Positions 48,447 to 48,729 of a DNA stretch of 57,035 nt are shown in pieces. This stretch comes from Methanomassiliicoccales archaeon (GTDB lineage: Archaea; Thermoplasmatota; Thermoplasmata; Methanomassiliicoccales; JACIVX01), in NCBI GenBank assembly GCA_029907465.1, contig JARYLV010000001.1, positions 140,923 through 197,957 of the forward strand, written 5' to 3'. The translations under genes and the position numbers were made by a program. Below the pieces are notes generated by a model. It was not told the origin of the DNA and did not search any database. It worked only from the letters and a program-made list of their open reading frames with translations. Position 1 is the stretch's first letter; the number at the start of each line of letters is the position of its first letter.

Positions 48447-48455
48447 TTTAAATAT
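48447..48455 (+). promoter_or_regulatory. TATA box of the putative structured RNA
   Basis: TTTAAATAT, centred on 48451, predicts transcription from about 48477, exactly where the first hairpin begins. A second A/T element (TAAATATAAA, 48467-48476) would place the start inside that hairpin and is less likely to be used. Confidence 0.55.
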
Positions 48456-48476
48456 CCATGTGATACTAAATATAAA

Positions 48477-48686
48477 TGCCCGAAGAGGTCGGGATCGAAA
48501 ATTCCCAATAAATCTTCGGGTGGACAGGGTATCGTTAAAATGGGTCGCTCCAGGAACGACGATGTGGCATCGGGTCATGACTGGAGACCAACCCCGGTAC
48601 TCAACAAGCCCCAGCCTGGGTCAGTGTGGTGAGGCGGGTGTTTCCCTGCGATGACCCAACCTGTTAGGGCTGGGGGACACCTTTTC
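48477..48686 (+). ncRNA. Putative structured non-coding RNA, about 210 nt
   Basis: The stretch lacks a convincing protein and is denser in G/C than the surrounding gap. Three strong hairpins can be drawn: CCCGAAGA 48479-48486 with TCTTCGGG 48513-48520; CTCCAG 48548-48553 with CTGGAG 48581-48586, enclosing CGATG/CATCG (48560-48572); and CCCCAGCC 48609-48616 with GGCTGGGG 48668-48675, continued by TGGGTCA 48617-48623 with TGACCCA 48652-48658. The last has an internal TGA/GA pairing that resembles a kink-turn. A GGGGGACACC-TTTT end at 48672-48685 looks like a stop signal. The SRP GGAAG/AGCAG motif and RNase P core motifs were not found. It may be a free RNA or a leader of the next gene. Confidence 0.6.
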
Positions 48687-48729
48687 CACCAGCCTTCATT
48701 CGAAGTTTTCTCCGGAAAAACCAAATTCT

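Follow-up and report, generated by a model that had tools for sequence, protein, structure and literature searches.

What is the structured RNA that seems to lie between two protein-coding genes of a Methanomassiliicoccales archaeon? The window that we analyzed is a stretch of 57,035 nucleotides (nt) of this genome (assembly GCA_029907465.1, contig JARYLV010000001.1, positions 140,923 to 197,957). An earlier note, made from the letters alone, had described three hairpins in it and had left three options: a novel archaeal RNA, a guide-type RNA, or a leader for the cysteine protein encoded downstream. We argue for the second of these. With a probability of about 0.94, the gene at 48478-48686 (+ strand) encodes a box H/ACA guide of about 200 nt that occurs once in the genome, is transcribed independently, and is homologous to HgcG/Pab40/Pf7/Afu4, with hairpin III directed at U1915 and hairpin II at U2586 of 23S ribosomal RNA (rRNA; numbered as in Escherichia coli) and with hairpin I probably a remnant. 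The homology, the structure, the complementarity and co-variation of guides and targets, and the position of the promoter can be observed in the genomes. This type of RNA is already known, and it is the databases that miss such RNAs in this methanogen group. A search of open-access papers found no paper on this RNA in Methanomassiliicoccales.

The homology emerges from the Rfam search that the earlier note had proposed. No family matched in the window at gathering thresholds, but in E-value mode the RNA matched RF00064 (HgcG/Pab40, an H/ACA RNA) with 35.6 bits and E = 2e-8. The alignment spans model positions 1-276 of 276 and includes all three hairpins, with hairpin I shortened. Among 20 homologous loci that we tested, 14 also match RF00064 at full length or nearly so (23-67 bits). 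Two other matches, to STnc310 and P26, were weak (E = 5-7), and we put them down to chance; a search for transfer RNAs in the window found none.

Energy folding reproduces the three hairpins, but they are carried by covariation rather than by energy. The fold is only modestly more stable than expected by chance (z = -2.0, with 8 of 200 shuffled sequences equally stable). In an alignment of 70 homologs, by comparison, 34 of the 39 pairs have changes on both sides, and there are 502 cells with double changes versus 147 in shuffles; not one of 500 shuffles reached the observed level. Bases are paired in 92.3% of cells, and this falls to 34-46% if the partners are slid by 1-3 columns. Judging from these alignments, the strong evidence for the structure is conservation and not folding energy. 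Conservation of a protein, which the note had offered as a way to refute the RNA, does not account for the pattern: the compensatory changes, along with indels, are not explained by any protein frame.

The conserved hairpins have the marks of H/ACA RNAs. In the window, all three hairpins are followed by an ACA, and 69 of 70 homologs have the 3' ANA box. Tandem GA motifs (kink-turns) are found in hairpin III of 67 of the 70 and in hairpin II of 52. The kink-turn that had been suspected in hairpin III is therefore real in the sense of being conserved, and hairpin II has one as well. The G/C-rich stem followed by a 3' tail is in the sequence as described, and the ACA before its T-run is a diagnostic ACA box. 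These boxes and kink-turns, together with the H/ACA pockets and the homology to RF00064, favor the guide-type option.

To find what the pockets might recognize, we scored every U of the 23S rRNA of a congener, and of the genome's own 16S rRNA, as an unpaired target with two spacer lengths (1706 placements). In an H/ACA pocket, the target U should be flanked by pairs on both sides. Hairpin III has such a site around U1915 (4+6 pairs) and hairpin II around U2586 (5+4 pairs), and each of these ranks first of the 1706. The identity of the two uridines comes from alignment to E. coli rrlH. The 3' guides of both hairpins start 14 nt before their ACA boxes, which fits the 14-16 nt rule for the spacing between guide and box in productive archaeal guides (PMC7991803, PMC4652768).

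Hairpin III (48609-48679, +) has a lower stem at 48609-48616/48668-48675, a GA stem at 48623-48630/48655-48662, a kink-turn formed by GA at 48631-48632 with GAUGA at 48650-48654, and an ACA box at 48677-48679. Its 5' guide GGGUCA (48618-48623) can form six Watson-Crick pairs with UGACCC of helix 69, and its 3' guide GUUAG (48663-48667; GUUAC in most homologs) is complementary to the (G)UAAC that precedes U1915. This best site, UAAC[UA]UGACCC, has 4+6 contiguous pairs and scores 25 points, versus 21 for the runner-up. Hairpin III by itself covaries beyond all of 500 shuffles, and there is also support for a structure drawn by hand in which the GA stem adjoins the kink-turn. The long UGGGUC/GACCCA stem that energy folding predicts for this hairpin fares badly in most relatives, where two of its six pairs are poorly kept (22 of 68 and 20 of 70 homologs). 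The alignment indicates that the conserved stem is the GA stem next to the kink-turn, and that UGGGUC/GACCCA supplies the 5' guide together with part of the GA stem.

Family f10 also speaks for this target. All five helix 69 sites that we read in f10 have UGACUC, and all ten tabulated RNAs have GAGUCA. Outside of f10, we read UGACCC in the target and GGGUCA in the guide, barring weaker AAGUCA-type guides in part of family f2 and single oddities. By this comparison, the change in f10 is one natural compensatory event between guide and target that kept six Watson-Crick pairs. We consider it very likely that U1915 is the target of hairpin III. (The f10 loci are L115 and L200-L209 for the RNA and L145, L172, L175, L178, and L179 for the 23S rRNA.) As a separate matter, at four 23S loci (L149, L158, L190, and L196) the sequence leaves the rRNA consensus just past helix 69, where AAGGU is followed by GAC or GAA, and in two genomes (G081 and G128) the 23S matches exceed the usual length by 250-500 nt. 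This suggests introns near the target of hairpin III in some relatives, or the split matches may be a search artefact.

Hairpin II (48527-48606, +) has a lower stem at 48527-48534/48595-48602, a GA stem at 48547-48553/48581-48587, a kink-turn formed by GA at 48554-48555 with UGA at 48578-48580, and an ACA box at 48604-48606. Helices 1, 3, 4, 5, and 6 of our A5 alignment, which belong to it, covary. Its 3' guide AACCC (48590-48594) is the complement of GGGUU (E. coli 2581-2585) in the peptidyl-transferase center, just before the proposed target U2586. The 5' guide GGUC (48543-48546) could form four contiguous pairs with the GACC that follows U2586-A2587, which is a weaker assignment. The best site, GGGUU[UA]GACC, scores 24 points, versus 17 for the runner-up.

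The 3' guide tends to be kept where the target uridine is kept. AACCC is present in 32 of 40 genomes with U2586, and 8 of the 10 genomes with C2586 lack it (Fisher p = 0.0007, uncorrected for kinship). We count about four independent losses of AACCC with C2586 (in f8, f24/g57, f21, and f15), as against two exceptions and one loss without C2586 (f2). In f15, the base is C2586 where it was read, and hairpin II has been rebuilt without AACCC; it may have been retargeted. The f15 loci L223, L224, L225, and L227 keep a short hairpin III, and the 3' guide of the hairpin upstream of it is no longer AACCC. C2586 itself is seen in several lineages of Thermoplasmata (23S loci L039, L142, L144, L149, L152, L158, L192, and L194-L198).

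Several observations weigh against our overall reading. First, the window's RNA, with its 35.6 bits, is below the gathering cut-off of 77 for RF00064, and so is each of the 20 homologous loci (the best has 66.7). Because the match is full length but below the cut-off, we view the RNA as a homolog that has diverged too far for the curated threshold. On this comparison it is a homolog of HgcG/Pab40 but is not a member of RF00064 by Rfam's rule. Second, we looked for the 23S rRNA in the genome's own assembly (G000) and did not find it: contig C20 has the 16S rRNA, and the stretch read behind it contains no 23S rRNA. The 23S targets were taken from the congener and other relatives. Third, the GA stem of hairpin III has three mismatched layers in the window. 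Fourth, the 5' duplex of hairpin II is short, and GGUC fails to follow targets that read CACC, CAAC, or AAAC. Finally, G010 and G091 have C2586 yet keep AACCC, and eight f2 genomes have U2586 without AACCC; in f2, the target's flank has changed to AAAC. Given that GGUC does not track the target, that AACCC has exceptions, and that the p-value is uncorrected, we regard U2586 as a probable target of hairpin II and not a strongly supported one.

The alternative that survives best is that only hairpin III is productive, and that hairpin II has a structural or chaperone role, with its match to the peptidyl-transferase center not used for modification. Besides the indifference of GGUC to CACC or CAAC targets, it is favored by a result from Pyrococcus abyssi, where the equivalent position was not found to be modified even though Pab40 could fold to target it (PMC2584109). 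However, AACCC does not vary across most families, ranks as the top match in both rRNAs, and starts exactly 14 nt before the ACA, and it has changed in f8, f24/g57, f21, and f15, where U2586 is C. We think that this alternative is unlikely, although it deserves more weight than the other two, and we keep the reading with two guides.

In archaeal H/ACA ribonucleoproteins, L7Ae binds the kink-turns, Cbf5 with Nop10 and Gar1 holds the pocket and the ACA box, and the target U is isomerised. We infer that the predicted guide RNA is expressed, is assembled with these proteins, and modifies its targets. In this picture, hairpins II and III would carry L7Ae on their kink-turns and Cbf5, Nop10, and Gar1 on their pockets and ACA boxes. 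Hairpin III would open so that GUUA and GGGUCA pair with UAAC[UA]UGACCC of helix 69, which would place U1915 for conversion to pseudouridine. In hairpin II, AACCC (and probably GGUC) would pair with GGGUU[UA]GACC and place U2586. The genome does encode Cbf5 (437 bits), which was the only one of Cbf5, Nop10, Gar1, and L7Ae that was searched for.

Hairpin I (48478-48526, +) folds as GCCCGAAGA/UCUUCGGGU and is followed by an ACA at 48524-48526. Its lower stem is intact and its kink-turn has been lost. A GA..UGA kink motif is present in relatives from families f3, f4, and f6 and is absent from f1, the window's family: the window has GGGAUCGAAAAUUCCC without the motif, G003 has a plain stem, and in the congener G002 hairpin I has shrunk to a stem with a small loop and the ACA after it is altered. 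(The loci that we compared for this loss are window positions 48478-48526, L005, and L004.) A scan for targets gave top matches that were weak, rich in A-U and G-U pairs, and lineage-dependent; none was convincing and we assigned none. Af52 is an archaeal hairpin that likewise lacks a kink-turn, and it is considered non-functional (PMC4652768). From its sequence, hairpin I of this lineage is most likely a remnant whose guiding activity is gone. Perhaps the RNA has been trimmed guide by guide in co-evolution with the active center of the ribosome: U2586 has become C in several lineages of Thermoplasmata with AACCC decayed or retargeted, and the window's family has lost the L7Ae site of hairpin I, which became smaller. 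We would give this idea even odds.

The RNA gene lies between a divergent gene of the NTPase_1 family (PF03266; 47829-48392, - strand) and a CxxCxxCC gene (YkgJ-type, PF03692; 48730-49023, + strand). A TATA box, TTTAAATA, lies about 29 nt upstream of hairpin I, at 48447-48454 (+), and starts 30 nt before 48477. The sequence is as the note described it, and hairpin I starts at 48478. In most of 30 relatives, the first base of the best TATA-like octamer falls 27-32 nt upstream of hairpin I, and this conserved position supports the proposal that the RNA has its own promoter. The 3' end reads GGGGGACACCTTTT, and its T-rich part, CCTTTTCC at 48680-48687 (+), is likely a terminator. The RNA is present as a single copy in its own genome.

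Could the RNA instead be a cis-regulatory, riboswitch-like 5' leader of the CxxCxxCC gene? It is directly upstream of that gene and on the same strand. But the CxxCxxCC gene is beside the RNA in only some of the relatives and is missing beside several homologs, and because the RNA is retained where the gene is absent, it is not that gene's leader. For example, at L029 an HD/OB-fold gene directly follows the RNA, with no CxxCxxCC gene between them, and L028 and L025 also lack this neighbor. The neighbors that stay with the RNA are the HD/OB-fold gene and, in most cases, a DUF72 gene. Also, the ACA box and T-run close the RNA before the gene begins, and the guide changes together with the 23S rRNA. 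We consider a leader to be very improbable. An entirely new class of structured archaeal RNA, unrelated to H/ACA guides, is the least credible option of all: the lack of an Rfam family at the gathering score hints at it, but the full-length match to HgcG (E = 2e-8), the kink-turns, the ACA boxes, and the complementarity of the pockets contradict it.

The two guides match targets that have been proposed or validated for RNAs from Pyrococcus, Archaeoglobus, and haloarchaea (PMC4652768, PMC2584109), which, along with the homology to RF00064, is why we do not view this as a novel kind of RNA. HgcG/Pab40/Pf7 from Pyrococcus and Thermococcus have the same order of three hairpins, ACA boxes, and an AACCC 3' guide in hairpin II (PMC4652768; PMC2584109), and they have a GUUAC-type 3' guide in hairpin III that points to the same helix 69 uridine (P. 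abyssi 2016, or E. coli 1915). An in vitro reaction with Pab40 modified P. abyssi 2016 (PMC2584109). The window's RNA differs in that hairpin I lacks a kink-turn and the 5' guide reads GGGUCA where the HgcG consensus has GGGUUA. In P. abyssi, U2588 is a further target of Pab40 (PMC6138745), and we identified no counterpart of this activity for the window's RNA. The haloarchaeal hairpins HP1 and HP2 (Hvo1/Hvo2) have the same two proposed targets, E. coli 2586 and 1915 (PMC2584109); we liken them by these targets and not by sequence, and in the window's RNA the two hairpins are adjacent. For Archaeoglobus Afu4 (Af4.1-4.3), our comparison rests on description and not on alignment: Af4.3 is related to Pa40.3 and has the same helix 69 site (PMC4652768), whereas the validated targets of Af4.1 and Af4.2 are different ones.

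These results extend the range of the Pyrococcus-type H/ACA RNA across most of Thermoplasmata, a class in which it escapes Rfam's cut-off. By BLASTN, 36 of 61 near genomes have a homolog, and a covariance model built on hairpins II and III (R1) matched 181 of 250 sampled genomes from the class, nearly always once. Our models could be used to improve RF00064. The class also offers a natural case of compensation between guide and target (f10) and natural losses of both target and guide (the C2586 lineages), which makes it a good system for asking which ribosomal pseudouridines persist and why. In family f19, a model of hairpin III had zero matches in ten genomes, and both members that we read have C2586. 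When we scanned for the exact pattern of the RNA's core, the only named genomes that matched were Methanomassiliicoccales/Methanomassiliicoccus or metagenome-assembled genomes labeled as euryarchaeal or Thermoplasmatota. In the genome G015, the RNA model matches twice (G015:C67:2-157 and G015:C26:64954-65066), and the second match is shorter.
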